This document shows positions 24,586-43,598 of a DNA stretch of 64,000 nt, one piece after another. The translations under genes were made by a program, and so were the position numbers. Within the stretch, counting starts at the first letter, position 1; each line of letters begins with the position of its first letter. Source of the DNA: Bolinopsis microptera (Eukaryota > Ctenophora > Tentaculata > Lobata > Bolinopsidae); NCBI RefSeq assembly GCF_026151205.1, contig NC_087080.1, forward strand, positions 8,831,720 through 8,895,719. The letters are read 5' to 3'. The notes beneath the pieces were generated by a model. That model searched no databases. It was given only the letters and a program-made list of their open reading frames with translations, and was not told the origin of the DNA.

Positions 24586-26183
24586 CTCATCAGTCGACAG
24601 TCTTATGAGTCTCAGAAATCTGTTTTTCTTTAAAATCCTAAAACATTGTGTCAAACAGTATATATATACATTCAATTAAATCAAGTGATGCAATTGGCAG
24701 AGCACAATCAAATTTTAAGTGTTGCAATTGGCGGAGCACAATTCATTGCTACCAATAATTTTTTCAAAAACATTTTAACAAAACACATGATCTACTCCAT
24801 TATAGGGGCAGGGATGAGGTTGTATGAAATTTCTGATAGCTGAATCTCACGTTTGGTGTCCACCTTCTTTCATCTGTTTTTCTTGGTTACAATTCTGTCC
24901 GTCCAATTTCCTATCTGCTTGTCCTTTTCTTTTTTCTTTATCAGTTGTGACGGAATTGTAATGAACAAAATCCTTATAATTATTTATGATATGTTTGATT
25001 TCTTGTTAATGTTTGTCATTCTAATTTGGTAGACGGCCCCAACGTTAATGTGGCTCTTGCTATGTGTTGGTTCAGCCGAATTAATTATTATATAATCAAG
25101 TTTATTTTTCTCGTTAGTTGTCATCCGGCCAAACATTAAGCAACTTATATTGCAGTACCATTTATCATTTAGTAATCAATATATGTCATTGTAATTTTGC
25201 ATGGCTGAAATGTAACGCTTGATTTATATATATAATGATTAATTGAATTTTCAAATAAAAAACAACGAATAGAGATTAGGCGGAATGACAGGCTGAGCGC
25301 GGCTCAGTAACCGGGGCTGGTTACTGGATAATGGATAAGCAAATTTCATAAAAAGCCACACAACTAAACCAAACACAGTAGGGAAAACCTTAATTACACA
25401 TTTTTTTCGTTAATCGTTATTCTTTAACGATATGATATGAATATTTTAAAATAATTTCCTGGCCTTGTAACTCATAAAAATAATTATACAAACATGCAAC
25501 TGACATTTAATTTATTTGACACTGCAACCCCGCAAATATCAATAAGCGCGGCGCTTTTTTTCGAGATTATCGCATCAATATACGTAAAGGACGTTAAAGG
25601 ATTGGCAATTGCTATTACGTAAATTATATTACTTTCCTTGTGGCAACATTTCGAGAAAGCTGTCCGCGCTATTTCGAAAAAATTTAGACGAATCTCATTC
25701 TTCAAGTTAGAGTAGCAAGCAATTAATTGTAATATAACTAGCCATAAACATGAACACCTAATTCATGTTGATAAATTTGTTGTAGGTTTACAACCTACCA
25801 GGACGCGCGCCGAGTTGGACTCGTCGATAATATATGGAACAAATATTTTACGAGTATCACCCGTTAATGAATTTGTAAGGCTTTTTATTAAAATGTTACA
25901 TGTCACTTGTGACTTGTAGCGCGATGCACTACTGGGTCGCGCGCGCGCATCCAATAATGCTTCTCGCAACCACGTATGCAGATCGGCGAGATGCGAAGGA
26001 TTGACATCGTGAATCAACATGTCACGTGATCAATATCAGACATGACAGATTTTTGCCAAAATCTCGTCAGAGGAGAATTTCAATTTTATGTCATTATGTG
26101 AGAGCAACAAGCAATAAACTAACAAGCTATTTCAAGCCAAGTAATGCTGTGTAATTTCGTTCGATCCAACGTAACGGAATCCT
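24586..26183. other. Non-coding AT-rich stretch
   Basis: Probable 3' region of the LINE fragment, then unique AT-rich DNA with scattered CG-alternating islets (for example near 25805 and 25937). No credible gene is seen. Confidence 0.45.
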
Positions 26184-26264: not shown

Positions 26265-26993
26265 TAGCTGAGCTATAAGTTAGCTCATTCTTCAAACTAG
26301 TTGACCATTGACACTGCGATTTTAACTTGGGCCTTTAAGTTTGGGGACAGTAGTACTAACCAGCCGGCAGTTAGCCTATGAGTCACATTGAACATGTCAG
26401 CATTGGAAATGGATTTCTCTTTTTCTATAATTTAGAGAAAAAGACCTAATTCATTTTTGGTAATTATTCTTTGTGGTATACTGATTATCTCTGCCCAGGA
26501 AAAGTTACCGGCCAGCGGGCGCGCCACCAATATGATAGTTTCGATACAGCTGAAGACACCGCGCGTGTCTGTAAAGTAATTAGCCATTACAATTCATGTT
26601 TAGATTGCGCGCGCATAGGAATTCTGTCAAGAATAGTTAAATTTGACCACAAAATACCATAAATGTATTCACAATGCTTGGATAATGATGGTAAAAATTT
26701 AATCTTTAAAAGAATTTTTGAATTTTTAGTTTTCGTTCAACAAAACCGATTTTACAGTTCAAAAGCAGAATTTTCAACTTTTTAATAACAATCCCTTCAC
26801 GCCGCGCCGATATGTGTTTCTGTACTAATTTGCGCTCTTATTTCGCGTTGGATACTTTTACCTATAGATATGTCATTCTATAATTAGGATTGTTTCTGGG
26901 GCTCGCTTGCAATATATATATTCAACATTTTCTTTCCTATTTCCGTACATTTTGTATTTTCCTCGTTCGTGGTAATTAGTTTTTATTAGCACA
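26265..26993. other. Region upstream of the two-ORF unit
   Basis: AT-rich DNA with a few CG-alternating islets (near 26515 and 26605). It may contain the promoter or left end of the unit at 26994-31488, but no terminal repeat was recognised. Confidence 0.35.
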
Positions 26994-27383
26994 ATGAGCA
27001 AACGATCACGTACCGAAATAGAAGTTCAATTTCTTAGCGACTGTGTATACTCTGCGTTAGTCAAATCTGGATACTCAAAGCTTCCTTTCTGTAAGTACAT
27101 TTTGGCACATTTTGTATTGTCAGAATTTGACGGACGCGTAGAAGACCATGTGAATCAATTTCCCCATTATTTTGGTTACGTTCGTAATTACTTGGATTCG
27201 CGAAATTTTCGTCGAATTATTGGTCAAGCCAAGTGTATCGCCGATAATAAAGAGGTTTTAGATTCTCTTAAGCAGACTTATAGGAGTGATCAAATTCGCA
27301 TTTCACATGAAAACAGTAGGCCACAAGTAGAAGGCGTCCCTTGTAGTGTTTGTTTTAATATAAATCAAGAGGCTTGCATATAA
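26994..27383 (+). CDS. ORF1 of an unrecognised two-ORF unit (129 aa)
   Basis: An ATG-initiated frame of 129 residues that I do not recognise. It is basic at the start (MSKRSRTE), then mixed helical sequence with several aromatic residues (HFVLSEFDGRVEDHVNQFPHYFGYVRNYLD), and ends with two cysteines (PCSVCFNINQEACI). The stop lies in the first copy of a repeat of about 320 bp. Just past it, in the +1 frame, the repeat encodes IDTGAELSLYGT, which resembles a retropepsin active site. ORF1 plus that motif could be the remains of a gag/protease-like frame, but this is inference. The large ORF2 follows on the same strand. Confidence 0.55.
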   Translation: MSKRSRTEIEVQFLSDCVYSALVKSGYSKLPFCKYILAHFVLSEFDGRVEDHVNQFPHYFGYVRNYLDSRNFRRIIGQAKCIADNKEVLDSLKQTYRSDQIRISHENSRPQVEGVPCSVCFNINQEACI

Positions 27384-28068
27384 TGAACATATTGACACGG
27401 GTGCAGAGTTGAGTCTGTATGGAACCTAGTAGTTTCAGATCCTTGTTTAACTTGCCGTACAGCAAGGTCATTCACTACTTAAACTTTAGCCCGGCGAGGC
27501 ACATAACTCCCTCTACAACTCCATGACAAATGTTTCATATATACTAGCCGAGTTCACAAGTTATATCCTTGTGTTTGAGAAGAGCTCGTTAGAACTGCTT
27601 CCTTTCCCTTCAGTATCCCACAGTCTCTCGAGTTTCGTAACTGCCAGAGAACTCTCTTAAACAATTACTAGACTCGGTGATTATAAATCAAGAGGCTTGC
27701 ATATAATGAACATTATTGACACGGGTGCAGAGTTGAGTCTGTACGGAACCTAGTAGTTTCAGATCCTTGTTTAACTTGCCGTACAGCAAGGTCATTCACT
27801 ACTTTAGCCCGGCGAGGCACATAACTCCCTCTACAACTCCATGACAAATGTTTCATATATACTAGCCGAGTTCACAAGTTATATCCTTGTGTTTGAGAAG
27901 AGCTCGTTAGAACTGCTTCCTTTCCCTTCAGTATCCCACAGTCTCTCGAGTTTCGTAACTGCCAGAGAACTCTCTTAAACAATTACTAGACTCGGTGATT
28001 ATAAATCAAGAGGCTTGCATATAATGAACATATTGACACGGGTGCAGAGTTGAGTCTGTACGGAACCT
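27359..28068 (+). repeat. Tandem repeat of about 320 bp (2.2 copies) between ORF1 and ORF2
   Basis: Copies start at 27359, 27683 and 28001 (each at ATAAATCAAGAGGC); the third is only about 68 bp and runs straight into the ORF2 ATG. Copies 1 and 2 differ by a 6-bp indel near 27480, a single-base indel in AACAT(T)ATTG and a few substitutions. Collapsing the array to a single copy would leave the ORF1 stop about 45 bp from the ORF2 start. Confidence 0.9.
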
Positions 28069-31000
28069 ATGTCAAACAATGACGGAGGTGATAATTTGAA
28101 AAGTAGATGCAACAAAATTTTATCCGAATTTGCTAATAACGAGTTAGGTCGTGGAAAGAGTTTTAAGGAAATCCACGAATGCATATGCAGGACTTCCTAC
28201 GAAATTCTTTCTAGCTACGATAAAAGTGTCGAAAATTTCGAAATATCTTTGAGCGAATTAAAAGTGGAATTTGAGCGGTACAAATCGGAACTAACCATCA
28301 ATGTTGCAAAATTCAATGATCATTTAACCGAGGCTAGTGCGCTTATCCACTATGGCAGTGGTCTTTCAGGAAGTCAGGTCGAGAATTTAGACCGTACTAT
28401 ATTTTGCACTGAATTTTCTAAAACAGACATCGAGCAACATCTGTCTAATCTACCAGATTATCGCCACATTAAGTCATCCGATCCAAATATTGAGCTTGGG
28501 GACCTGTTTAATGAATACTGTTCGCACGTCCTTACGTACCATTTCGAACCAGGTTTCTTTAAACTGGGTACAAAATATAGTTTAACTGGCCCTAAAGGAG
28601 GGAAAAGATTGTCCGATTATGCACAATCTGTCTGCTTAAATTACCTTTTACTTCCGAGAAATCATGGTATTTACAGTGAGTTAAGACCCATACTTGCTGT
28701 CCACAGTAATGCCCGGACACGCTACAAGCCCCACCCTCTAGTTGACGATCTTTATATCCCAAGAATTCCTCCAGCTAGTGTCGCTGATGAAAAAGTTGAA
28801 ATACTAAGAGAACTCCAATCAATTTTGCTGGGGACTCCCCAGATACCACTTTTGTATGAAGGTTGGGATTTGGTTAAATCATGTCCTAAACAGGTAGCAG
28901 CTAACTCACGATTAGTTGACCTTATGTCAATTAGAGAACATTCCCTTAGTTTCCAGTCTGGTAATAATTTCTTGAAGGCCAAACCAAAAGAGCATTACCA
29001 AAATTTGTCGATTGACGAGGTGAAATGCACCTTAAAGAGTTATAGTTTGATTTGTGATAGCGACTTCCAAAAATACGACGAAAGTTTTCTTAGAAAAAAA
29101 CTTGAAGAAGCTGAGTCTACAAGGAGCTTTGCAATGTGGTATGATCACGCCGTTATTTTAAACAGAAGTTACATCCTTTTTGTCGTTTGGCCTTTATACA
29201 GCAAGTCCCTTTACCAATCAAATGATCTATGTGAAGGGGATTTACAAAAAGCTGTCGAGCAAATTTACATCCATTACATAGCTATGTCTCCTTCGACAAC
29301 CAAAAGCGAAGAGGCATTACAAGAATTTAGAACTAACCAGTTAGCTGCCTTTAAAGTTACAATTAAAACAAACTGCGGAATCGAATTCACGGACAGATTA
29401 AAATTTGTGAATGGCGATGCGCCTGTAAGGAGTGTTGAGAATGGTTCAAACAAGAGTGGACCGTATCGTAATCCTACCTTATTAGAATGCTTCCCTATAG
29501 ATCATTATGAATATTACGAAATTGTAAAATTTGAACACATGACATTCGACAAAACTACAAAACATGCTAATAAAGGTGGGTTCTTCGAAAATCCTGAAAA
29601 TCGCGGAAAATCGCTACAAGATTTAAAAGATAAACCCGCCTCAGCATTAGAACTAATGAAAATAAGATGGCCACATAAGCGTCTTGATAATATGAATAGC
29701 GAACAGATAAAAGAGTTTTTGAAAAATGACTTAGGGGGTATAAGGCGACCCCCTATTCTATTCATGGCTACTCCTGATAAATCACCTGAAGAAATTGGTC
29801 TTGAAGGGGCTGAACTTTTGGGAAATGAATGTCTTCATGGTCTCAGAGGCGAAACCCTCAAATCATTCAAACACATTCCAGGACCTCAAGGTGACGGACC
29901 ATTAAAATTAGTACATGAGATTATATCCAATTGTTGTAATTTTGATTACGGATCAAAACACGAAAAATCTGGCGAGTCAGTTTTTAAGAATTTAATTGAA
30001 ATTGTTCAGAAACTAGAAATGAAATTATTTCCAGACGGGTTGTCCTGTAATATTTGCGGGGATATTTTTACTTTGTCAATTGTGACCAAATGTCCTAAAT
30101 GCCTTTATTATACTTACTTCAGAGCACTTCTAGAAATTCATATATTTGGATACAAAGATGAGTCTAAACGGTCAGGTGCCTCCACATTGCTGCTTCATAA
30201 TATCATTTTTGTATGGTTTAAAACTTTGAAAGAAATACAGATTACGATACCTACTGCTCTTAAAGTTATTAATTCTATTTACTTCCTCGGCATAGTTTAC
30301 TACATGGGTCCAACATTCGAACTTACTAACTTTTTGTCAGTGCATGCCGGACGCATGGAAGATATTTTTCGGCAACTGAAGGTCTCTGCTCACAGTTTTA
30401 CCAATCGAAAACACTTTCAAGAGAGTTTCCTGCTTAATGTCCTAAAACGTCAAGAAATCTCCAGATACTTTAAAACTGCAAACAATTTCAAAACTTATCG
30501 TAGCACAGTTTCTTCTGCCATCACTGCATTTCATCAAAGAAGTCCTATTCCTGACATTGTTTTTACCAAAGAATTTATAACGTCCAACATCCAAGACTTT
30601 GCAGGACACGTTTATCGCATTTCAAATTTTGTCGTTTCCAATACTAATGAACGATATATGAGTTTGTCCTCGGAAAACGACCTTAAATTCTTTTCCTCTA
30701 GAGAATGTCGCTCAGAAAACTGTCTGTCATCATGCCCACCATGTTTATCAAAGTTATTTCCTGATTTCCCAATCCACAATATATTGACATCAACGATTGA
30801 GATAATTCTAAATACCAAAGCTGCTATCTATCAGAAATTTGCTTGCAACATTTTTGTCAATGGTGGGGTAGATTTCTCCAATTTGCGTAAACTATTAGGT
30901 CAGGGCCCACTATTAACACCTGATATCATAACGTCAAGCGAAATAATAGAAAATATTAACATTGATAGGGAAAATCCTAGCAGACAAAAGCTGCCTGCAA

Positions 31001-31488
31001 ACTTTTCGTCAATGTTGAAATTATTGATTGAAATGTTTCCCTCTGATCCTGAAAAATACGATAAGCTTAAACACAGCAACATGGCTAAATGTATTTCCAA
31101 AATTCTTAACGCTGTCCCAGATGAAATTATTCACTTAGACAGTAGTAGTCGCAGATTAGCCTTGGCATCATCTAGTTGTATTAAGGATCCAAAAGACAGT
31201 AATAATAATAGACAGCATAATGAATTAGCATACTATACAAGTAGGATTACGGACTCAATTGAACTCATAAGCACCAAATTGTTATCTTACCAAAAAGACA
31301 TCGACAAACTATCAGGTGCCGTAGATAAATTAATTACTAATAGGCAATCAACCGATTCCATTGAGGACAATCAGTTTGTCAAGAAACTTAGAGAAAAACA
31401 AAAATTAAAGCTCATAGCTCTCGAAGTCTTGAACAAGCTCACCTATGAAATTAGTACTCACAATTATTTTATGTACAGATCACTATAA
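28069..31488 (+). CDS. ORF2: uncharacterised 1139-aa protein, candidate mobile-element protein
   Basis: A single uninterrupted ATG-initiated frame of 1139 residues, far longer than any exon of the host genes. I do not recognise a named domain. Visible features: a helical, coiled-coil-like N-terminus (about 40-95); a central motif GNECLHGLRGET around Glu587-His590; a zinc-ribbon-like C660-x2-C663-x11-C675-x2-C678; a second cysteine cluster C880-x4-C885-x3-C889-x2-C892; and a helical charged C-terminus (about 1065-1125). No RT, DDE, integrase or helicase motif is apparent. The ECLH(G/D)L(R/K)G-like block followed by a Cys pair resembles, from memory, large uncharacterised proteins found in many copies in cnidarian, sponge and mollusc genomes. 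On that basis I infer a mobile or domesticated-mobile origin. The frame is intact and possibly functional. Confidence 0.75.
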   Translation: MSNNDGGDNLKSRCNKILSEFANNELGRGKSFKEIHECICRTSYEILSSYDKSVENFEISLSELKVEFERYKSELTINVAKFNDHLTEASALIHYGSGLSGSQVENLDRTIFCTEFSKTDIEQHLSNLPDYRHIKSSDPNIELGDLFNEYCSHVLTYHFEPGFFKLGTKYSLTGPKGGKRLSDYAQSVCLNYLLLPRNHGIYSELRPILAVHSNARTRYKPHPLVDDLYIPRIPPASVADEKVEILRELQSILLGTPQIPLLYEGWDLVKSCPKQVAANSRLVDLMSIREHSLSFQSGNNFLKAKPKEHYQNLSIDEVKCTLKSYSLICDSDFQKYDESFLRKKLEEAESTRSFAMWYDHAVILNRSYILFVVWPLYSKSLYQSNDLCEGDLQKAVEQIYIHYIAMSPSTTKSEEALQEFRTNQLAAFKVTIKTNCGIEFTDRLKFVNGDAPVRSVENGSNKSGPYRNPTLLECFPIDHYEYYEIVKFEHMTFDKTTKHANKGGFFENPENRGKSLQDLKDKPASALELMKIRWPHKRLDNMNSEQIKEFLKNDLGGIRRPPILFMATPDKSPEEIGLEGAELLGNECLHGLRGETLKSFKHIPGPQGDGPLKLVHEIISNCCNFDYGSKHEKSGESVFKNLIEIVQKLEMKLFPDGLSCNICGDIFTLSIVTKCPKCLYYTYFRALLEIHIFGYKDESKRSGASTLLLHNIIFVWFKTLKEIQITIPTALKVINSIYFLGIVYYMGPTFELTNFLSVHAGRMEDIFRQLKVSAHSFTNRKHFQESFLLNVLKRQEISRYFKTANNFKTYRSTVSSAITAFHQRSPIPDIVFTKEFITSNIQDFAGHVYRISNFVVSNTNERYMSLSSENDLKFFSSRECRSENCLSSCPPCLSKLFPDFPIHNILTSTIEIILNTKAAIYQKFACNIFVNGGVDFSNLRKLLGQGPLLTPDIITSSEIIENINIDRENPSRQKLPANFSSMLKLLIEMFPSDPEKYDKLKHSNMAKCISKILNAVPDEIIHLDSSSRRLALASSSCIKDPKDSNNNRQHNELAYYTSRITDSIELISTKLLSYQKDIDKLSGAVDKLITNRQSTDSIEDNQFVKKLREKQKLKLIALEVLNKLTYEISTHNYFMYRSL

Positions 31489-32950
31489 ATATTAGAGCAA
31501 GCAAGTCCTTTTAACCTATTTTGTATCATTCAGTATGATTTATTTTGTGTCGATTTCAAGTATTATTTATTTTGTGTCAATTGTTCGGTGTAAGTATTAA
31601 ATAAGTCAGATTGATTCTATTGCAGTTATTTTATGTATCGTGACAAATTTATTTTATGATTGATTTATTCCAAGTTAAGTCATTGCATTTATATTATTTT
31701 TATTACATATTTTTATCTTGACTAAATTCAACAAAATTCAACGAAAATTTGTCGAGCAAAACATGTTTACATGTTTTTGAATCCAATGGAGTAGTTGCGA
31801 AAATTATTTGTTTATTATATACATTTTTAACATTATTTTTGAGAGAAAGATTGAGAAATTGACTGTTGTGTGAGGAGCCATGAAGTACTCATTGAGTTAA
31901 GATCACCTATTCGATCCTGCTAGTTGTGTGGTTGAAAAACACTGCATTAGGCTAGATTGTGGATCATAGTGTTGAGCTGGCTCAATGACTGCCTTGGAAT
32001 TCACACCAGGAAGGAAATGAGCTACCAAATTTAGTTATGAAAGATAGGGAAGGGATTTGATGTAGTAACTTACATTTTTACAAAGTAGTTGGGAAGTAGT
32101 TGCTAAATAAATGCAGGGTAAAGTTTAGTTGGTGTAGTAAAAGTATCATGTTAAGCTTGTTTTCTTCTGGAAAAGGTCAGTGTCTCGTTTTATTATTATT
32201 TTATCGTCTGTTATTGTAATTATAAGAATCATAATTTTGTAACGTTTTAAATCATTTGTAAAAACATAACAAATATCTGATGCTGCTTTAATAGGTAAGA
32301 CCTCCTCGTTGGTAAGCAGTGGGTGATGCAGATTTTGTTGGCTATGATTAACCGTTTGTGGGATAATGGCAGGGAGTTTATCCTTATTTTCACGTTTCAC
32401 AGTAATCGAATTAACATTTTGCTCTTAGAACATTCGCTCGAGAAATATATTCCCTGCCATTGCTCATTTAATGCTGTAAAACATCATCTACAAGCTTGAT
32501 GTTTTACAGTATGTTATTTTTCCAGCTACAATTTTTGTATTAGCAGACTATACCTTATTTTATTTTAAAATATTTTAACTGTATTTTAAGTGTGAGTGCA
32601 GAATTGAACTGTGTTGATATGTTCCTACAAGATTACAACTGGTTGTACTGTAAGTCTTCTGAGTACCAGCTCAGTACCCCTCACCTTCCTGGTAGAGAAA
32701 ATCTGACTTTGCCACAACTACGTTCATATTTTGTACAATACAAGGTGATTTTCATTCAGTTTTAAGTCTGTTTAGTAACATTTTAACGTGAATATGACAT
32801 CACCTGACTATCAGCTCTGTTCTATGCTCATTGAGAACTAAACGTTCAAATCAAATTACAACAAGATTGTCATTTTTTCCGATTCTTGGAATATAGTTTA
32901 ATATTTCATATCCCTTTTTGAATGGTGATTATGTTATTTAAAATAATCTT
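31489..32950. other. Non-coding AT-rich region after ORF2
   Basis: Starts with T-rich TATTTTGTGT-type iterations (about 31520-31640), which may be ORF2 3'UTR. There is no gene, and no terminal repeat matching the upstream side was recognised. AATGGTGATTATGTTATTTA at 32922 recurs near 40583. Confidence 0.4.
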
Positions 32951-33456
32951 ATTTTACCAAAACCCATATTCATGGGTAGAGTGGACCGCTGCCAGTGTCT
33001 CTCTTTCCCAAACAAAAGGAAATGATATTAATTTGATTGACCGTTCTCAAATGCAAAATGATACCGAGAATGAAATCGGTCGCTCGCTTTTCCCATTCAT
33101 TCACGGCTTACGAATTGTAATAAGTTTCGATTGATTACATCAGTCAGATGCTGTAAAAATCTCTTTGGGTTGCGTTCGGATCGATACCTAGTATTTCGGG
33201 GTAAGGGTAGTAGTTATTGCTTATTGAATTAGCTGAAGTTTATTGAATCTTTATTGCCGAGTACAGCTGCCTTTGGGTAGATCTTCTTAATCTATTACAA
33301 TTGTAAATGAATGGGAAAAGCGAGCGACCGATTTCATTCTCGGTATCATTTTGCATTTGAGAACGGTCAATCAAATTAATATCATTTCCTTTTGTTTGGG
33401 AAAGAGAGACACTGGCAGCGGTCCACTCTACCCATGAATATGGGTTTTGGTAAAAT
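32951..33456. repeat. Foldback: 152-bp inverted arms with a spacer of about 200 bp
   Basis: 32951-33102 is the near-perfect inverse of 33306-33456. The outer end is ATTTTACCAAAACCC and the inner end is CCCATTCATT. The spacer (33103-33305) shows no gene. Frames on both arms translate to the same peptide because of the symmetry. This is probably a foldback or MITE; no target duplication was resolved. Confidence 0.85.
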
Positions 33457-34242
33457 ATCATCTCTTTTTGATTATAATGTCAGGGTACTTTATAAAGTCG
33501 AAATATAAACTGATATCTTCATTAATTAATAAGGAGGAAGTTTCAACGATTTCGAAATTTTCCTTTAAAAACATTTCCTTGTGTTTAGGTAAGCATATCG
33601 GTCGATCACTGACTGAATATGCCACCTAATACTCATTCAAGTTGGCATTAAATTCATATATAATGACATTAAACTGTCGTGGCAAAGCAGAATTTGTTGG
33701 AAATCACGAATGAGCAAAATTCTCACCTTTCGCACGTGCAAACTTTGAGCGGACGTTGCGTGCGCATCCAATATTGAATCGCCGTAAATTTTTTCATGTA
33801 ATTGTTTTATATATAGCTTGATAAGCATGCAAAGTTTCAAAGTATTTCAAGAAGAACTGTAATCACAACGGCACTCTAAAGTTGACAGAAAATGACGAAA
33901 ACAGCAATTTTCAGTGATTTTAGCAATTTTCTATCAATTTGGGCGCGCGTGTCCCCACGTGTGCAACTTTTCGATTTTCAACTTCAAAACTAGCCTAATG
34001 CACAATTTATACCTATAGGAAGCAGAACTGAGCTCCTCAACTCAAGGCATGGCCCAACACCAGAGAATACTAAATCGCAAAATTGACGTTTTTATAAAAT
34101 AATTCTTCAAAAAAGCACAAACTTCAATGACGAATATCTTTATGAAGGAGCAAGCTAGAAAAACTTTCCGGTAGATTTTCAGAATGCTTGAACAATTATT
34201 TAAGATAAAAATCTCCTCAGATTTTGAATAAAATTACTCCTT
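33457..34242. other. Non-coding flank of the retrotransposon pair
   Basis: AT-rich DNA with no recognised gene. It ends at ...ATTACTCCTTAA, where the truncated retrotransposon copy begins. Confidence 0.45.
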
Positions 34243-35327
34243 AACCTCTTTCTCACATGGGAAAATACAATGACATTTGACACCACGTGGAATAACCTGA
34301 TCTATCAACTTAGTCCGGAACTGTTAAAGTTTCATGTCAATGCTATCCATGACACTGCGTCAACACCTAGCAACCTAAAGCTTTGGAATAAAGCCGTTTC
34401 AGGAAACTGTAAACTCTGCAGCAAACAAGGGACACTCAATCATATCCTCACGTTCTGCAAGGTTGCACTGAGACAGGGACGTTTCAACTGGCGCCATGAG
34501 CAGGTCCTACGTGAAATCATGAAGACTGTTTCATCACCCATTGAAGAGTTTAATTCCGACATCGCCAAGGAATCGAAGAGGGCACCGTCGGTCTTTCACA
34601 AGGCAGGCAATAAGCGCGAGAAGGTTACCTTAGCTGACCCAACTCATCATAAGACCAAAAGATATTTCTTTTCAGATGCCAACGACTGGAAGATAATATT
34701 TGATGAGGATGAGAGACAGAGGAACTTCCCGCAGCACATTGCAGCTACACCACTAAGACCTGATGTAGTGATCTATTCAGATAAAGCAAAGAAGGTTTAT
34801 CTAATGGAGCTGACTTGTGGAAATGAGCAGAACTTTGCTGATCAAGAGAAGCGAAAGATGAAGAGATATCAGCAGCTGACAGAAGAGATAGAAGCCAACG
34901 GATGGGCTTGCAAGCTCCAGACAGTAGAAGTGGGAGCTCGAGGCATTTACAATTATAGCCTCCCAACCTTTATGAACCACCTGAACGTAAACAACAAAGA
35001 GAAGAAGAAGGCCTGCATGAAGATCGCTGAGATCAGCCTGAGGGCATCGTATACCATCTATTTGTCCAGAAACAATACCATATGGACAGATGATTGGGAG
35101 TTAGTCAAGAGACCAGTAATAGCATAGTAGGAGCGTAGAATGTTTGGGCCCAGAAAAACATGTTTAATACCGCTATGAACCCGTCATAAGCCGGGGACTA
35201 CTATGAAAATGATGATGCTGTGTTGTTGAAAGACCTTCGACCAATCAAAGATGTACCTCATCACGCCAAGCAGTTATGCTTGTAGGTGAATATACACTTA
35301 TAGAGTACAACAACTTTATAACACTCC
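34243..35327 (+). mobile_element. 5'-truncated copy of the RLE retrotransposon
   Basis: About 1085 bp colinear with 38105-39189 of the next element. I found one difference by eye: G at 34500 versus T at 38362 (Glu/Asp). It contains only the end of the ORF (frame 34270-35127), with the CCHC knuckle CKLCSKQGTLNHILTFC and the restriction-like endonuclease, plus the whole 3'UTR. It abuts the full-length copy head-to-tail with only CTCC between them. The 5' truncation is typical of target-primed reverse transcription. Confidence 0.92.
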
Positions 35328-38300
35328 TTATGATTGGAAATTGACCCGAGTGAGGAGGGTTATCCTCACATTGATTAACGGATTGGAATCTCCTTGGAGA
35401 TATGGCGTTTACTCGTCAAAGGGAAGTTGCATGGTTTGATGGTTATGCCAGTAGAGTGACACGACTTCCCCTCTCACTCTGCGCCTACCTGACTTCTAAC
35501 TGAGGGTGGCGTTTCTACGTCGGGCACCCTCACGAAAACAAATGACCGGGAAGTCCCTTGGGTGTGAACCCCAGCTCCCCTGCTACTATTTCACCCACAG
35601 CAACTAATAGCCAGCAAGATGATAGTGGAAACAACACAGGGCGGAGTGTTACACACGACCAACAGTGTGATAAGTGTAAAAGGTGGTTTAAGCACGTGAA
35701 GAAACACGCGAGATTTTGTAAGCAGACACCGGACAAGAGCCTGGAAGAAGATGCCGTAGGCATTATCGGTCAGGAAGGAGGTAACACGGAGACGGAACCC
35801 AGCCAGGATACAAACCACAGTGCAAAATGGAGGACGTCTACGTCTGCAAACTTTAGATCTCACGCAGATCCACCAGAACCGGTAGTTATTAAAACTCGAT
35901 TAAAACTACCTAAGGCCAATGATATTAGGTGGGACAAGATTGATCAAGACCTCGGTCTAATTGGTCTCCAGTTCACTACACACAGCGACCCTAGTAAGGG
36001 TTTGGAGTTACTTGAGAACACCACCTATGATTACCTCGAGTTGATATGCGAAGTCGGTTCAACAAATATTATACCATCGAAGAAAAAACCGAGACTTGAT
36101 GCTGAGTGCAGACAGTTGAGGGAAATGAAGAAAGAGAGTAGAAAGGAATGGAAGAGAGTATGCGACTCGAATGATGATGAACAGGTTAAAAGACAGAAGA
36201 TTTCTTACCTGAAACTAGTACGACTTCATAACAAAGCAAGAAAGACCGCCCAGAAGAAAGAAAGGAAAAAGATGAAAGAGAATAGCTCCAAACTCTTTAG
36301 AAAAAACCCTTATGAGTATGGTAAGAAACTGCTCACGAAGGAAGAGACTAAAGATAAAGAGCCTGAGTTCGACAGTGAAGAAGCATCTAAGTTCTTTGAA
36401 AAGGAGTACAAAGATGATGACCGAGAGCGTGAATATGTAAACCCCACAGGACTGAAAGACCTTGACAAACCTAATTGGATCTGCAGTACAGCGCCACCCA
36501 CATGGGATGAATTCCACCTAAAGCTTAAGTCAAGGAGAAATAAGTCAGCACCTGGGTCAAATGGTGTCAACTACCTGATCTACAAGAAGTGTCGAACTTT
36601 CAGTCACCATCTACACCATCTGATATGCAGGATTTGGAAAACAGGAGTTGTCCCCCCACAGTGGAAGGTGGGAGTGAGTACATTAATTCCTAAAACGGAT
36701 GATCTAAAAGATCCTGGCAAGTTCCGTAATATCACACTCCAAAACTGTAGTGGGAAGCTGTTCTTTGCCATCTGGGGAGACCGTGTACTTGAGCACATGA
36801 CACGAAATCTGTTCATTGACACCTCAGTACAGAAAGGTTTCATGAAGAAAACCCCTGGTTGCCTAGAACACACTCAAGCCCTCCTTGAAGAGATAAAAGA
36901 TGCTAAAAGCCACAGAAGACAAGTCCACGTGATCTGGATTGACCTTATGAATGCGTATGGGAGAGTCCCGCACAGCCTTATTATTTATGCCCTACGCCGG
37001 TACCACCTACCTGAAAGCTTCATTAAGCTTATAATTGAGTATTATGGAAGCCTCAGTGTCCTAGTTAAGTGCAGGAAATGGACATCCAGAACATTCTGGT
37101 ATGAGCTAGGCCTGTTCCAGGGAGACCCACTGTCCGTGATCCTGTTCCTTATAGTATTCAACATCCTACTGGAACTTCTAGCTGTACTGTGCAGTCAAGT
37201 TGGGTATGAGCCAAGCTTCTGTGATAGCAAGACCTCAAAGAAAGCATTTGCTGATGACCTAACCCTGCTCTCGAAGAGCGAGAAGGAGATGAAGAAGATG
37301 TTGAAGGTAGTAGAAGAGTTCCTGGACTGGTCGAAGAAAATGAAGGCTAAACCATCGAAGTGCCTGTCTATGTCTATGAAGTGTACTGGAGGAAAGTACA
37401 ATACCTATGATGCAGAGTTTGTACTAAGCGAACAACAGGTGCCGTCCATTATCCAAGCACCAATGAAGTTCCTAGGAATGTACATGTATGTAGATCTTGA
37501 GGTGAAGGAAATTCGGTCCATGATTAAGAAGAAGTTAGAGGACCTTTTGGAAACAACGTCTAATGATGAAATCACTGGTCCAATGAAGGCGTGGGTGTAT
37601 AACCACCTCATCATTAGTAAGATGTCATGGGGGTTTACTGTTTATAACCTACCCATCACATTTGTGAGAGAGCTTGAGGCACTGTGTAACAGATACCTTA
37701 AGAAGTGGCTAGGGATTGCGCATCCTTGTACCACCACCGTCCTCTACAGGAGTAGAGACCAGAAAGGATTGCAGCTGAAAAACATCTGCACTGAGTACAA
37801 AGTCATCCAACTTATTAAGGGACACCAACTTTGTAACTCAAGTGACCCCTACATCAAAAAAGTGTACTCTAACCATAAGGCTATTGCAGACACACAGAAG
37901 ATGTGGTCTTATCCCAAAGAGCTGAAAGACCGTCAGCGCCAACTTTACTTCCAAGAGTTAGTTGGAAAACCTGCAGTTGGTACAACTGGCCTCGGGTATG
38001 GGACAAGATATGAGGACACATCAGAGAGGAAACTACTAACCAACATGGTGAGGACTTTTGATGAAGAGACACTTATTTGTTCACTTTTTGACAAAAAGCG
38101 GCAAAACCTCTTTCTCACATGGGAAAATACAATGACATTTGACACCACGTGGAATAACCTGATCTATCAACTTAGTCCGGAACTGTTAAAGTTTCATGTC
38201 AATGCTATCCATGACACTGCGTCAACACCTAGCAACCTAAAGCTTTGGAATAAAGCCGTTTCAGGAAACTGTAAACTCTGCAGCAAACAAGGGACACTCA

Positions 38301-39189
38301 ATCATATCCTCACGTTCTGCAAGGTTGCACTGAGACAGGGACGTTTCAACTGGCGCCATGATCAGGTCCTACGTGAAATCATGAAGACTGTTTCATCACC
38401 CATTGAAGAGTTTAATTCCGACATCGCCAAGGAATCGAAGAGGGCACCGTCGGTCTTTCACAAGGCAGGCAATAAGCGCGAGAAGGTTACCTTAGCTGAC
38501 CCAACTCATCATAAGACCAAAAGATATTTCTTTTCAGATGCCAACGACTGGAAGATAATATTTGATGAGGATGAGAGACAGAGGAACTTCCCGCAGCACA
38601 TTGCAGCTACACCACTAAGACCTGATGTAGTGATCTATTCAGATAAAGCAAAGAAGGTTTATCTAATGGAGCTGACTTGTGGAAATGAGCAGAACTTTGC
38701 TGATCAAGAGAAGCGAAAGATGAAGAGATATCAGCAGCTGACAGAAGAGATAGAAGCCAACGGATGGGCTTGCAAGCTCCAGACAGTAGAAGTGGGAGCT
38801 CGAGGCATTTACAATTATAGCCTCCCAACCTTTATGAACCACCTGAACGTAAACAACAAAGAGAAGAAGAAGGCCTGCATGAAGATCGCTGAGATCAGCC
38901 TGAGGGCATCGTATACCATCTATTTGTCCAGAAACAATACCATATGGACAGATGATTGGGAGTTAGTCAAGAGACCAGTAATAGCATAGTAGGAGCGTAG
39001 AATGTTTGGGCCCAGAAAAACATGTTTAATACCGCTATGAACCCGTCATAAGCCGGGGACTACTATGAAAATGATGATGCTGTGTTGTTGAAAGACCTTC
39101 GACCAATCAAAGATGTACCTCATCACGCCAAGCAGTTATGCTTGTAGGTGAATATACACTTATAGAGTACAACAACTTTATAACACTCC
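35328..39189 (+). mobile_element. Full-length R2-like non-LTR retrotransposon with restriction-like endonuclease
   Basis: A complete-looking element: a 5'UTR of about 220 bp, one intact 1143-aa frame (35558-38989) and a 3'UTR of about 200 bp that ends ...TTTATAACACTCC. The same 3' end occurs in the truncated copy just upstream. There is no poly(A) tail. The intact frame and near-identical neighbour indicate recent activity. Confidence 0.9.
35558..38989 (+). CDS. Reverse transcriptase/restriction-like endonuclease polyprotein
   Basis: A single polyprotein that makes the cDNA by target-primed reverse transcription. An N-terminal zinc finger, C37-x2-C40-x9-H50-x3-C54, is followed by a lysine-rich linker (about 185-275). 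The RT contains IWIDLMNAYGRVPHSL, LFQGDPLSVILFL and KAFADDLTLL (catalytic Asp566-Asp567). A CCHC knuckle follows, C905-x2-C908-x7-H916-x4-C921, then a PD-(D/E)xK-type endonuclease with RPD at Asp1023 and ELT at Glu1038. There is no APE domain, so this belongs to the R2/NeSL/CRE-type early-branching LINEs; the exact clade is not assigned. The open frame has no early ATG: it is open from 35546 after a TGA, and the first codon of the frame given here is TTG. Initiation therefore appears non-AUG or internal. Confidence 0.93.
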   Translation: MGVNPSSPATISPTATNSQQDDSGNNTGRSVTHDQQCDKCKRWFKHVKKHARFCKQTPDKSLEEDAVGIIGQEGGNTETEPSQDTNHSAKWRTSTSANFRSHADPPEPVVIKTRLKLPKANDIRWDKIDQDLGLIGLQFTTHSDPSKGLELLENTTYDYLELICEVGSTNIIPSKKKPRLDAECRQLREMKKESRKEWKRVCDSNDDEQVKRQKISYLKLVRLHNKARKTAQKKERKKMKENSSKLFRKNPYEYGKKLLTKEETKDKEPEFDSEEASKFFEKEYKDDDREREYVNPTGLKDLDKPNWICSTAPPTWDEFHLKLKSRRNKSAPGSNGVNYLIYKKCRTFSHHLHHLICRIWKTGVVPPQWKVGVSTLIPKTDDLKDPGKFRNITLQNCSGKLFFAIWGDRVLEHMTRNLFIDTSVQKGFMKKTPGCLEHTQALLEEIKDAKSHRRQVHVIWIDLMNAYGRVPHSLIIYALRRYHLPESFIKLIIEYYGSLSVLVKCRKWTSRTFWYELGLFQGDPLSVILFLIVFNILLELLAVLCSQVGYEPSFCDSKTSKKAFADDLTLLSKSEKEMKKMLKVVEEFLDWSKKMKAKPSKCLSMSMKCTGGKYNTYDAEFVLSEQQVPSIIQAPMKFLGMYMYVDLEVKEIRSMIKKKLEDLLETTSNDEITGPMKAWVYNHLIISKMSWGFTVYNLPITFVRELEALCNRYLKKWLGIAHPCTTTVLYRSRDQKGLQLKNICTEYKVIQLIKGHQLCNSSDPYIKKVYSNHKAIADTQKMWSYPKELKDRQRQLYFQELVGKPAVGTTGLGYGTRYEDTSERKLLTNMVRTFDEETLICSLFDKKRQNLFLTWENTMTFDTTWNNLIYQLSPELLKFHVNAIHDTASTPSNLKLWNKAVSGNCKLCSKQGTLNHILTFCKVALRQGRFNWRHDQVLREIMKTVSSPIEEFNSDIAKESKRAPSVFHKAGNKREKVTLADPTHHKTKRYFFSDANDWKIIFDEDERQRNFPQHIAATPLRPDVVIYSDKAKKVYLMELTCGNEQNFADQEKRKMKRYQQLTEEIEANGWACKLQTVEVGARGIYNYSLPTFMNHLNVNNKEKKKACMKIAEISLRASYTIYLSRNNTIWTDDWELVKRPVIA

Positions 39190-39968
39190 CTTAAAATTAA
39201 TTTTAAAAGTTATTACTTTGTCAAAAATCAAGTTTTAAAAACGGTTAACTTGATGACGTCATCAAGGGGTGTTTATGACGTCAAATAATTTTTTTATACA
39301 ATGTAAACTAAAGTGTAAACAATTATTTGCAAGACCTGTGGTCGGAAATGGCTTTATCTTTTATACTTTTGAATCTATGGACAATTAAATACAGGCTACA
39401 ATTGACTGGCAAAGCGTCTATCCCTGAATATGTATATATATATATATCACGACAATCTGTCGTAAAACAGGGGTTCTAGAAAACCCATTTCCCGATACTC
39501 CTGAAACCTGAAACTTTTTTTGCAGTCGATTTGATCAACGTCTAGACGCCCTGAAAAATTTCAGATCTCTAACTCAATTTTAACATGGTTTTTAAGGCAC
39601 CTGAATATGGCGATTTTGGGTTTTTTACCGAATTTCGTATAACAGTGCTGGCGAGTATTTTATGCAAATTTCTTAAAAATCTCAACATAACTATTTTTTA
39701 TTCCTGTCATCTTTGACATCAAATTAGAATGTTTTGAACTAAAAATAATTCTGCTTAACGACTTCCGATGAGTCTTAATGCCTGGAAAACTCCTGCCGGA
39801 GGCGTCGGCCTTCGGCCGCCGCCTCCGGCCGGAGTGCACGCTTCGCGTGCACAAAAGAGGCTTGTAACGTGTACCAAAGGGGGTATAATAGTAAAGGGGG
39901 TATAATAGTAAATGGGGAACATAGTATACCCACAATAAATGCAACGGTCGTGCTTGCCAGCACTGTGA
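39190..39968. other. Non-coding region with GC-rich hairpins
   Basis: AT-rich flank containing TGATGACGTCATCA (about 39251) and, at 39792-39859, two strong GC hairpins: GCCGGAGGC pairing with GCCTCCGGC around a nested CGGCCTTCGGCCG, and GTGCACG-CTTCG-CGTGCAC. A short tandem GGGGGTATAATAGTAAA follows at about 39880-39913. No gene is recognised. Confidence 0.55.
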
Positions 39969-40750
39969 TCTTAACTTCAGACAGTGTTTCGGAGGGTGAC
40001 AGTTCCTTCGCTTAAGTACACCAAGACTTCTTTTGAGATGAGGATAAGAATTAGGACCGGTGTCCAGCTTTCCCTGTACGAAAGGTAAGTTATGTTTATC
40101 TCTGAGAGCACGTTTCCTTGATGTGTGTAGTGGATTTCACAGGTGTAGTGGATTTTTGTTCCGGGGTAGGTGAGACATGTTTTGGTGGTTAAATAGTTAG
40201 TACCTGTCTCAAACCATCAGAAAACCGGGTTTCGACCTCTTGACCCACTCAGGCAACTCCCAGGGGCCACGCCAATCCCAAAATTACTCCAATCTAGGAC
40301 AAATCAAGGCTGTAAAATTTTACCCCTGTAGTGGATTTTGTTCCGGGGTAGGTGAGACATGTTTTGGTGGTTAAATAGTTAGTACCTGTCTCAAACCATC
40401 AGAAAAGCCGGGTTTCGACCTCTTGACCTACTCAGGCAACTCCCAGGGGCCACGCCCATCCGTAAATTACTCAAATCTAGGACAAATCAAGACTGTAAAA
40501 TTTTACCCCTAGCTGTAGTGGATTTTTGTTCCGGGGTAGGTGAGACATGTTTTGGTGGTTTAATAGTTAGCACCTGTCCCAAATGGTGATTATGTTATTT
40601 ATAATAATGTTATCTTAACTTCAGACAGAAATTCGAAGGGTGACAGTTCCATCTCTTAAATACACAAAAACTTCATTTGAGATGAGGATAAGAATTTCAT
40701 TTTGGACCGGTGTCCGATGGAAGGGAAGTTATGTTTCTCTGTCAGCTTGC
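39969..40750. repeat. 184-bp tandem repeat (2.4 copies) inside a larger diverged duplication
   Basis: Units start at 40144, 40328 and 40515 (GTAGTGGATTTTGTTCCGGG-like) and the third is partial to about 40580. The array is bracketed by diverged copies of a segment of about 135 bp, at 39969-40110 and 40613-40745 (shared ACTTCAGACAG, GGGTGACAGTTCC, TTTGAGATGAGGATAAGAAT and GGACCGGTGTCC). No coding capacity is seen. Confidence 0.85.
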
Positions 40751-41271
40751 CAAATGTTTTCTATCCTTCACTGCAATCGTCAAAAACACGTAAGTATTAA
40801 TATGATCTTAAATTAAGAATTCTATAACAGACGCGCGCGGCCCTGAATCTTACAGTGCCTCTATGTCAAGGTGACACCCTTTTCCAGCCATTCCATATAA
40901 AAAGAGATAGCTTAATTCACATTCTTCTACTGTTCTAGCAAGTTTTTGACTACTTATAATGTATAAAGCAAATAGCGTCAGTTAAGTAAAACAGAAAGCG
41001 CGCGCACATACGCGCATATTTTCTTTTTGGTTGTATTGTCGATATTATGTATTATTTATGTCTACCCAAATTTTTTCAGGGAGTCTACTTAAAGATCATG
41101 AACATTTTCAACATTCGTCTGAATAAACTGAAGGAACTGTAGCGTAAATATATCTGCAAAGACAGAACATTCTAACTTACTCACCGGATTGGCAATTGGA
41201 TCGAGCTGTTTTGAAATGTGAAACAAATGAGTAACCTATAAATATTTGTTTTATTAGAATTGGTTTAACCC
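40751..41271. other. Non-coding stretch
   Basis: AT-rich DNA with CG-alternating islets at about 40829 and 40997. No gene or resolved repeat is seen. Confidence 0.4.
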
Positions 41272-41391
41272 TTGACGGATGTTACTCGTCTAAATTTCTT
41301 CGAAGTAGCGCGCGCCGCTTTCTTCTCGAAATGCCCGATGGCAAGTGCTACGAAGTAGCGCGCGCCGGGCCAGATCATTAACAATGGTCAA
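41272..41391. mobile_element. Mini-element with 9-bp target duplication (copy 2)
   Basis: TTGACGGATG...ATGGTCAA is flanked by perfect 9-bp repeats GTTTAACCC (41263-41271 and 41392-41400). It is homologous to 26184-26255 but carries an internal duplication of the AGTAGCGCGCGCC segment. Two insertions of one family, each with its own 9-bp duplication, establish it as mobile. Confidence 0.75.
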
Positions 41392-41397
41392 GTTTAA

Positions 41398-41680
41398 CCC
41401 CCCAGTTCCATGGCCAGATATTATGCCAAATTATTAGACGGAGGTCCATTTCCCGTAGATCATCTCCGGAGATGATTCTCCGGCTCCGTCAACTGTATTA
41501 GACGAAGATTAAGCTCTGAGCTCTCCGGGAATTTCTCGGAGATTAATTCATACAGAATCATACAGAATCAACAAAATTACCGTAGATGGTCTCCGGTCGT
41601 GGAACTGCAAACCGGAGAAATATCAGTAGACGATCTCCGTCTAATAATTTGGCATAATATCCGGCCGTGGAACTGGGGTG
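41398..41680. mobile_element. TIR MITE, possible PIF/Harbinger type
   Basis: Inverted ends of about 45 bp: CCCCAGTTCCATGGCCAGAT... and its near-exact inverse ending ...CCGTGGAACTGGGG. The interior has several CTCCGG/CCGGAG palindromes. TAA flanks both sides (41395-41397, 41681-41683), which would suit PIF/Harbinger, but the left border overlaps the 9-bp duplication of the preceding mini-element, so the exact ends are uncertain. Confidence 0.7.
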
Positions 41681-41701
41681 TAAGGAATTGCTTTCTTATG
41701 A

Positions 41702-42085
41702 TTTAAATTATTTATAGCGTTGTAGGGCCCTGAAAGTAGATGTTTGGGGCCGTTCACATTACGTAATCGGAGCCCAATCGGAGAGAGAGGCGGTGTTTAT
41801 ATGATAACGTTTGTGTAATTTTAACACAATAACTAACTCGTAACTGTAAAACTGGTTATATAGGGAGTAAGGGAGCTAAAATAGGCTGAAAAGTGATGTC
41901 TTAACATATGATCGGAACGACTCTCAGCTGTTTTATTGTAATTGGTGTATCTTGCTCTTATTATTTAAATTTTAGCGTTGTCATGTAGGCCCTGAAAGCA
42001 GATGTTTGGGGCCTCGGGCCATTTACATTACGTAATCATTGCGAAGAGAGAGGCGGTCTTCATATGATGTTTGTTTGTGTAATTT
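41702..42085. repeat. Diverged duplication of about 260-bp period
   Basis: 41702-41800 and 41961-42085 share GCGTTGT...GGCCCTGAAAG.AGATGTTTGGGGCC, ACATTACGTAATC and GAGAGAGGCGGT..TCATATGAT in the same order. Confidence 0.75.
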
Positions 42086-43598
42086 TACGAGCCAGATGTT
42101 TTGTGTTTGAGTCAAAAGTTCTAAATATTCTGTTACCAGTGCACAGCAAGTTCATCGAGTGTAGTATGAACTTTCAGCACATAAGATAAGAACTACTGAG
42201 CAGCTGGATAGTTACTCATTCAGATGTGAAATCATTGTACATTTGTTTAATCGAAAGACGCTTTCAATTTTGTTCAAAACAGTGTTCACTTCAATTAAAA
42301 TTAATGGGATCCACTTGATTATCCCAAAGCAACAAAATGGACAGAAAAGACTATAACAGTTTTGGAAACTACTTCGTAATAAGTGCTGCAGGCGATCGGC
42401 AAAATACGTACTCTTATCTTCACGCGCATTTCCAAATATGGTCATGCATGATGACGTCACACGCATAACAACGGGTTTATTTTGCAAAGTTATTTTTCTA
42501 GCTTGTTGCGCGCAGCATCAAAAACAGTTTTTCTGTAATAACTTTTTAAAATGAGAAGCCCCAATTTTCCTCCTGGGGAGGTAACGTTATTTTTACAAGA
42601 CGAACATTTTGCAAAAAACCGGAAGTCGCTATCTTTTTTACTTCCGAAGTTAGGCCCCTAACGGTTAGGTTTCCTGGGTGCACTGTGGTGATGATTCTTA
42701 ATGAACCCTACCAGTCTTAACAAAATATTTGAGTTTACCGACACTATAATCAAAATTAAATTGAATTGTGCAACTTAAAGTTGTTAATCCTATTATCCAT
42801 CTAAGTAGGGTGTACCATTCAAGTCTCTACAAACTTCCCAAGCCAGCTCTGAAGGAAAGTGCACAGATAATAACTACTGAAAATGCATATATTACATAGG
42901 AATTTTTGAACCATAAAGAACTATGGGATCAAAGTGTTAAGATTTCACAAAACTTTTAGACGATTAACTCCGCAAATAAATTTTATAAATTCATGCACTT
43001 TTTCATTACCATGGAGCAGGTTTCGAGAAGGACAGACCTTAGAAACCTTTCATCAAATCTGTGATTGTTCAAATACTATACAATGATGCACAGGAAAACA
43101 AATTTTTTAGGAAAACAAATTTAAATTTTGGTATTTATTAATAACAATCAAAACATATCATATCATAAAAATAAAGCCGCGCGTTGGTTGACTGCCTCAG
43201 TAAGGTGAATAATTTAAGCTTGAAGGTGCCCTGCGCATTTACAGAACCTTATGCGGCGATCACATATTTATGAGGACCTGTGAGCGCCAAAATTAATTTA
43301 AAGTTTCTAGAAATCATACATCACTAGATGAGTTACTCATGCTTTTGGATTATAAGAGTGCGGATTGTCAGGTATTTCATTCATTCATACTTAATCGGTT
43401 TAAAGCTGTATATTTAGAACTCACTATTGTTTATACGTTGCATCATTTTAATACTTTCAGCGCTGCTATATAACAAATAATTTGAGTTCAGGGAAAGTAT
43501 GTCGTAATTCCCTCAAAGGGGTGCCGTAAGTTTACACGTTGCTTTAACAGCTGATTGTTTTGACCTTTGCTGGCTGTTTGTTTTAACTTTTGCTGAGT
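42086..43598. other. Non-coding AT-rich region
   Basis: No gene is recognised. The last part (about 43440-43598) is probably the 5'UTR of the LINE piece that starts at 43599. Confidence 0.4.

Follow-up and report, generated by a model that had tools for sequence, protein, structure and literature searches.

Gene content and organization of the locus

We analysed a 64,000-nucleotide stretch of DNA (hereafter the window; C9:8831720-8895719) that contains two open reading frames (ORFs) on the same strand, found where a previous sequence-only reading had placed them (Table 1). That reading regarded them as an intact two-ORF unit with an intact 1139-aa protein. Our results indicate a different organization: the 129- and 1139-codon ORFs are halves of one gene, because other copies of the element lack the 706-bp insert that separates them in the window. 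DNA alignment places window position 27361 directly next to 28068, within one open frame, in the copies on C4, C11 and C7 and in the partial copy at 14.9 Mb on C9. The uninterrupted frame has ∼1267 codons from stop to stop in C4, C11 and C7 (1261 aa from the ATG in C4). The supposedly intact protein is thus the C-terminal 90% of a longer, putative transposase. Since the insert separates halves of one frame, the ATG at 28069 is an internal codon; it corresponds to Leu-123 in the C4 and C11 copies and to Met in C7. The window copy is disrupted and its full-length protein is no longer made.

The insert consists of 2.2 units of a high-copy, dispersed 318-bp repeat, ends in a ∼68-bp partial unit and is present at no fewer than 40 other genomic places. 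We considered the 318-bp repeat as a part of the transposon and rejected this, as it is missing from the other copies and dispersed elsewhere in the genome, where it is often arrayed with ∼636-bp steps. Judged against the C7 copy, the insert is possibly flanked by TAT/TAT. Near the start of each unit, the frame ATTGACACGGGTGCAGAGTTGAGT reads IDTGAELS, which recalls the retropepsin active site, possibly by chance.

Table 1. Coordinates of the features identified in the window (residue numbers refer to the 1139-aa window protein)
Feature	Position	Strand	Remarks
ORF 1	26994-27383	+	129 aa
ORF 2	28069-31488	+	1139 aa, single open frame
N-terminal ∼122 codons of putative transposase gene	26994..27361	+	Cys pair CSVC near end of segment
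Remaining 1139 codons of putative transposase gene (C-terminal 90%)	28069..31488	+	ORF and genome copies
Nested high-copy tandem-repeat insertion splitting the transposase frame	27362..28067	.	318-bp unit × 2.2, 706 bp
Whole DNA transposon copy	26494..42678	+	Alignment with C4, C11 and C7 copies; flanks TG/TG
Left target-site duplication TG	26492..26493	.	
Right target-site duplication TG	42679..42680	.	
5' terminal inverted repeat CCCAGGAAAAGTTACCGG(C)	26494..26512	+	Copy alignment, genome-wide pattern matches
3' terminal inverted repeat, CCCAGGAAACCTAACCGT on minus strand	42661..42678	-	Copy alignment
Nested inverted-repeat element and non-LTR retrotransposon sequence	32957..39967	.	RT ORF 35558-38989, partial duplicate 34270-35127
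Nested ∼120-bp MITE TTGACGG...GGTCAA	41272..41391	.	GTTTAACCC apparently duplicated
Repeats of non-coding 3' third	L023 8223-8612, 9149-9839; window 40144-40583		
Candidate catalytic Asp 1 (D359, WYDHA)	29143..29145	+	End of predicted first beta strand; putative role
Candidate catalytic Asp 2 (D450, GDAPVR)	29416..29418	+	End of predicted strand beta 4; putative role
ExxH motif (E587, H590)	29827..29838	+	Conservation; PMC9587614, PMC8230255
Cys4 cluster CNIC...CPKC (C660, C663, C675, C678)	30046..30102	+	Within insertion between D2 and E
Candidate catalytic Glu (E764, AGRMEDIFRQLK)	30358..30360	+	On predicted helix; putative role

Extent and ends of the element

The C4 copy is uninterrupted and measures 7,939 bp (C4:16219500-16227438), and the window copy is swollen to 16.2 kb by at least three nested insertions (Table 1). 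Apart from the 1261-codon frame, the element contains no long ORF. The largest insertion contains an inverted-repeat element, with arms near 32950-33110 and 33310-33465, and then a non-LTR retroelement with a reverse transcriptase (RT) match (E = 1.9e-23). The partial duplicate ahead of the RT ORF repeats the 3' coding part of this retroelement head to tail. A 3' end of the element at 32956 was considered and rejected: the copies diverge there because of this nested insertion, and the true end is at 42678. Near 26180, a short way to the left of the element, there is also a sequence resembling the ∼120-bp TTGACGG MITE.

The element termini, CCCAGGAAAAGTTACCGG... and ...ACGGTTAGGTTTCCTGGG, form an imperfect ∼18-bp inverted repeat. 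The CCC...GGG ends of this family (hereafter family 1) have the short form CCCAGGAAA...TTTCCTGGG, and its terminal inverted repeat (TIR) follows the pattern CCCAGGAAA(n2)T(n)ACCG. The non-coding 3' third contains diverged direct repeats (134 and 142 bp) and a 50-bp inverted repeat, which may be transposase binding sites.

Copies, target-site duplications and empty sites

Searching the genome that contains the window (264.65 Mb, 232 contigs) with the protein revealed copies on C4, C11 and C7 at 99–100% amino-acid identity. C12 and C9 carry damaged or partial copies, and distant relatives with ∼32% protein identity lie on C12, C10 and C5; all copy counts are lower bounds. This bears out the suggestion that the protein is multicopy, and the element is not a single-copy gene. 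The C4, C11 and C7 copies are mutually ∼99.6% identical end to end over 7.9 kb. In a test for selection, the window and C4 reading frames differ at 8 synonymous and 5 non-synonymous positions; if non-synonymous changes are assumed to make up a share of 0.74 under neutrality, P = 0.007.

The genome-wide self-comparison proposed in the sequence-only reading also defined the ends of the element and its 2-bp target-site duplications (TSDs). The flanks are TG/TG in the window, AT/AT in C4, GA/GA in C11 and TC/TC in the C12 copy, and a 2.6-kb internally deleted copy is flanked by TT/TT. The C7 copy (damaged 5' end) and one C9 copy (altered 3' end) were left unscored. By our own tally, which includes two family 2 copies (see below), 18 of 19 independent insertions carry a 2-bp duplication of varied sequence; the dinucleotides include TG, GA, TC, AG, CA, AA and GT, among others.

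Element-free sites of two kinds were also found. When the C11 flanks are joined with one GA, they match contig C50:15580-15821 over their full length at 95%, with an exact left junction and a right flank that matches again within 8 bp. To judge from this alignment, C50 is an element-free allele or a paralogue of the C11 site. Over a broader interval (C50:15400-16000, L055), this unplaced contig is ∼95–96% identical to the C11 site, as would be expected of either a highly heterozygous allele or a paralogue. The joined flanks of one MITE (L040) match at least 40 unbroken copies of its host repeat. For the window insertion, whose flanks are unique, no empty copy was found in the genome.

Discrete ends, 2-bp TSDs, empty sites, deleted copies and MITEs together characterize the element as a cut-and-paste TIR transposon that has moved recently. 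The sequence-only reading had left a choice between a mobile and a domesticated element. The ends, TSDs and young copies confirm mobility, and no sign of domestication was seen.

MITEs and MITE arrays

The 5' end pattern has 228 matches genome-wide at ≤2 mismatches and the 3' end pattern has 93, and the reversed control has none in either case. Many of these matches are MITEs of ∼365 bp that have in common with the element its first 19 bp and, at 85%, its last 116 bp. Many MITEs are organized in head-to-tail arrays, (MITE-spacer)n-MITE, with a spacer of ∼338 bp that shows no similarity to the element. The longest array, on C7, has up to ∼22 units, one per ∼703 bp.

Among the first MITE loci inspected, 2-bp TSDs flank two solo MITEs and two arrays (AT/AT and TA/TA at the outer flanks of the arrays), and one MITE (L041) has both ends and no TSD. 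A fresh sample of 19 sites yielded 17 MITEs with both ends. All eight of these that lack the array spacer have a 2-bp TSD; two share flanks and represent one duplicated site, which leaves seven independent solo MITEs (7/7 with a 2-bp TSD and 0/7 with 3 bp). Mispaired MITE flanks, used as a control, agree in 18%. The other nine both-ended MITEs each touch the array spacer on one side and have no TSD, because the matching flank is at the opposite end of the array. The arrays at L040-L054, C7:11710316-11725109 and C2:3357219-3363542 have 2-bp duplications only at their outer flanks. A MITE array thus seems to be a composite unit that transposes or expands as a whole, like KolobokP multimers.

Related families and candidate catalytic residues

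All the relatives found stem from this one genome, and a scan of viral and prokaryotic contigs found none; an alignment of six sequences shows no stretch of sufficient conservation to serve such a scan. The relatives on C12 and C10 (family 2) share 98% DNA identity with each other and ∼31% protein identity with the window protein. Family 2 has a perfect 12-bp inverted repeat (CCCTGCGGTTTC...GAAACCGCAGGG) at its ends and TSDs of AG/AG and TA/TA. Its C12 copy (10.9 kb) contains a single long ORF of 1352 codons, a homologue of the window protein, and the C10 copy is internally deleted. CCC...GGG ends and 2-bp duplications are therefore common to two families that differ at ∼70% of residues. On C5 there is a third family, whose homologous ORFs are split in two and for which no ends were located. 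In this family (L031:2660-5128) an N-terminal Cys-containing domain, CLHAIG...ICSICF, occurs twice in tandem, an arrangement that suggests a DNA-binding module.

We then compared the proteins of the three subfamilies, which have ∼30–50% identity and all keep long frames. In window-protein numbering, the residues invariant within this one-genome set are D359 (WYDHA), D450 (GDxPVR), E587xxH590, C660/C663/C675/C678, H710 and E764 (AGRxED). The two Cys4 clusters and the GNECLHGLRGET motif noted earlier in the 1139-aa protein are present; the accompanying view that it has no catalytic signature probably does not hold, given the conserved D, D and E with ExxH. The spacing, D(90)D(313)E, is like that of DDE transposases whose final Glu is preceded by an insertion. 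When a crude propensity prediction is averaged over the three subfamilies, the order of secondary structures is beta-beta-...-beta-alpha-beta, both Asp fall at strand ends and the Glu lies on a helix; such placement is what the literature requires for an RNase H fold to be assigned (PMC5718144). A single-sequence AlphaFold model of the core has a mean pLDDT of only 38.5. Because this model is too poor to count and the residues were assigned by conservation, their catalytic roles are given here as putative. Taken together, the invariant D, D, E, ExxH and Cys4 residues point to a DDE transposase.

Profile searches of Pfam, NCBIfam and PHROGs matched no family, in agreement with the initial description of the protein as unrecognised. 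Searches of these databases and of PDB sequences, with single proteins and with the alignment, returned noise only, and the searches that we ran gave no match to a described transposase family.

Comparison with known superfamilies and alternative explanations

There is nearly an even chance that the element is a divergent member of an already catalogued superfamily (e.g. Repbase EnSpm/CACTA, Mirage or another). Similar multicopy proteins presumably exist in cnidarians and molluscs. EnSpm/Mirage-type elements are reported with 2–5 bp TSDs (PMC12730594), and a TSD in this range is what our element has in common with the CMC/CMCT clade (EnSpm/CACTA, Mirage, Chapaev, Transib, Plavaka, ESTA and Lanisha). 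However, H(3–4)H is required of the CMC clade, and its termini are 5'-CA...TG-3' in most cases (PMC12730594). By contrast, the ends are CCC...GGG in both of our families, two C(2)C pairs are present, and the H(3–4)H demanded of the CMC/Transib clade is absent in family 1 and not conserved between families. Pfam also gave no match for any of the five proteins tested from the three subfamilies. The other superfamilies differ in TSD length or target sequence (PMC12730594, PMC9587614, PMC10045372, PMC4482050).

There is a likeness in motif order to hAT, P, MuDR, Kolobok and Dada, in which a C/DxxH motif lies between D2 and E (PMC9587614). Shared features are the putative D...D...xxxH...E order, the long insertion before the last E, TIRs and MITE cohorts. 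Our element differs from these groups in having (i) ExxH instead of C/DxxH in all three subfamilies, (ii) 2-bp TSDs, where these groups have 4–10 bp depending on the family, and (iii) CCC...GGG ends, and it has no profile similarity to them. KolobokP composite-like transposons (Kojima and Bao 2022, PMC9587614) resemble it in that a short TIR unit occurs both alone and in TSD-flanked (unit-spacer)n-unit multimers. Here, however, the unit that multimerises is a 365-bp non-autonomous MITE, its ∼338-bp spacer bears no relation to the autonomous element, the TSDs are 2 bp, the terminal sequence is different and there is no His-Me nuclease ORF.

ISL2EU, Tc1/mariner, piggyBac and KDZ are excluded on TSD, ORFs or profile (PMC4482050, PMC10045372, PMC12730594). 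ISL2EU (PHIS) also has a 2-bp TSD, but its target duplication is AT and it has a second ORF with YqaJ (PMC4482050), and its ends are mostly GG; our element has varied TSDs, CCC...GGG ends and a single long ORF with no YqaJ ORF. In Tc1/mariner the duplicated dinucleotide is TA, in contrast to the varied dinucleotides found here, and there is no Pfam match. PiggyBac/IS1380 shares CC...GG termini with our element, but the TSD here is 2 bp rather than TTAA and no piggyBac transposase profile matches. The KDZ group (Zisupton, Dileera and Kyakuja) has 7–8 bp TSDs (PMC12730594), unlike the 2-bp TSDs observed here, and no KDZ profile matches.

The open-access literature that we searched contains no described family with such features, and the element is set apart from the superfamilies compared here on the basis of Pfam, NCBIfam, PHROGs, PDB and published descriptions. 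We tentatively propose that it may represent a superfamily of its own among eukaryotic DDE transposons, with CCC...GGG ends, an unspecific 2-bp TSD, an ExxH variant of the [C/D]xxH motif and a Cys4 cluster in the insertion domain as its hallmarks. Such a superfamily would have been recently active and would drive self-multimerising MITE arrays.

Alternatively, the element could be moved by another enzyme and carry the 1139-aa protein as a passenger gene or a domesticated host protein. The fact that the transposase identity comes from sequence features with no profile match would fit this. However, the element has no other long ORF, the single long ORF of the relative's element is a homologue, the element is multicopy and young, and two families with only ∼31% identity have in common this protein, CCC ends and a 2-bp TSD; we therefore consider this explanation very improbable. 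The chance that the unit is a retroelement or virus-like, with the 706-bp repeat as terminal repeats or as part of the nearby RT element, is negligible: a direct repeat does lie between the ORFs and an RT ORF downstream, but both are separate insertions missing from the other copies, and TIRs, MITEs and 2-bp TSDs mark the element itself.

Functional and evolutionary implications

The two ORFs are very probably the split remains of a ∼1261-aa transposase gene in a 7.94-kb DNA transposon with short CCC...GGG TIRs. We suggest the following mechanism: (i) the transposase would bind the terminal repeats, possibly via the N-terminal Cys-containing domain that is duplicated in one relative; (ii) a putative RNase H-type active site (D359, D450 and E764) would coordinate metals; (iii) the insertion domain, carrying ExxH and a predicted Cys4 zinc site, may be stabilised by the latter; and (iv) the enzyme would cut the element out and join it to target strands staggered by 2 bp. 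The same transposase may mobilise the MITEs, which have the element's ends.

DDE superfamilies number about 20–25, and the family, if undescribed, would add a lineage to them. Multicopy 'uncharacterised' proteins of a kind that may recur among invertebrates would then also have a name. The element has been recently mobile, its 1261-codon frame is open in three copies, its ends are known and the ∼365-bp MITE provides a minimal substrate, so transposition can be tested at once. Finally, the MITE arrays illustrate how dispersed satellite-like DNA can arise from a TIR transposon.
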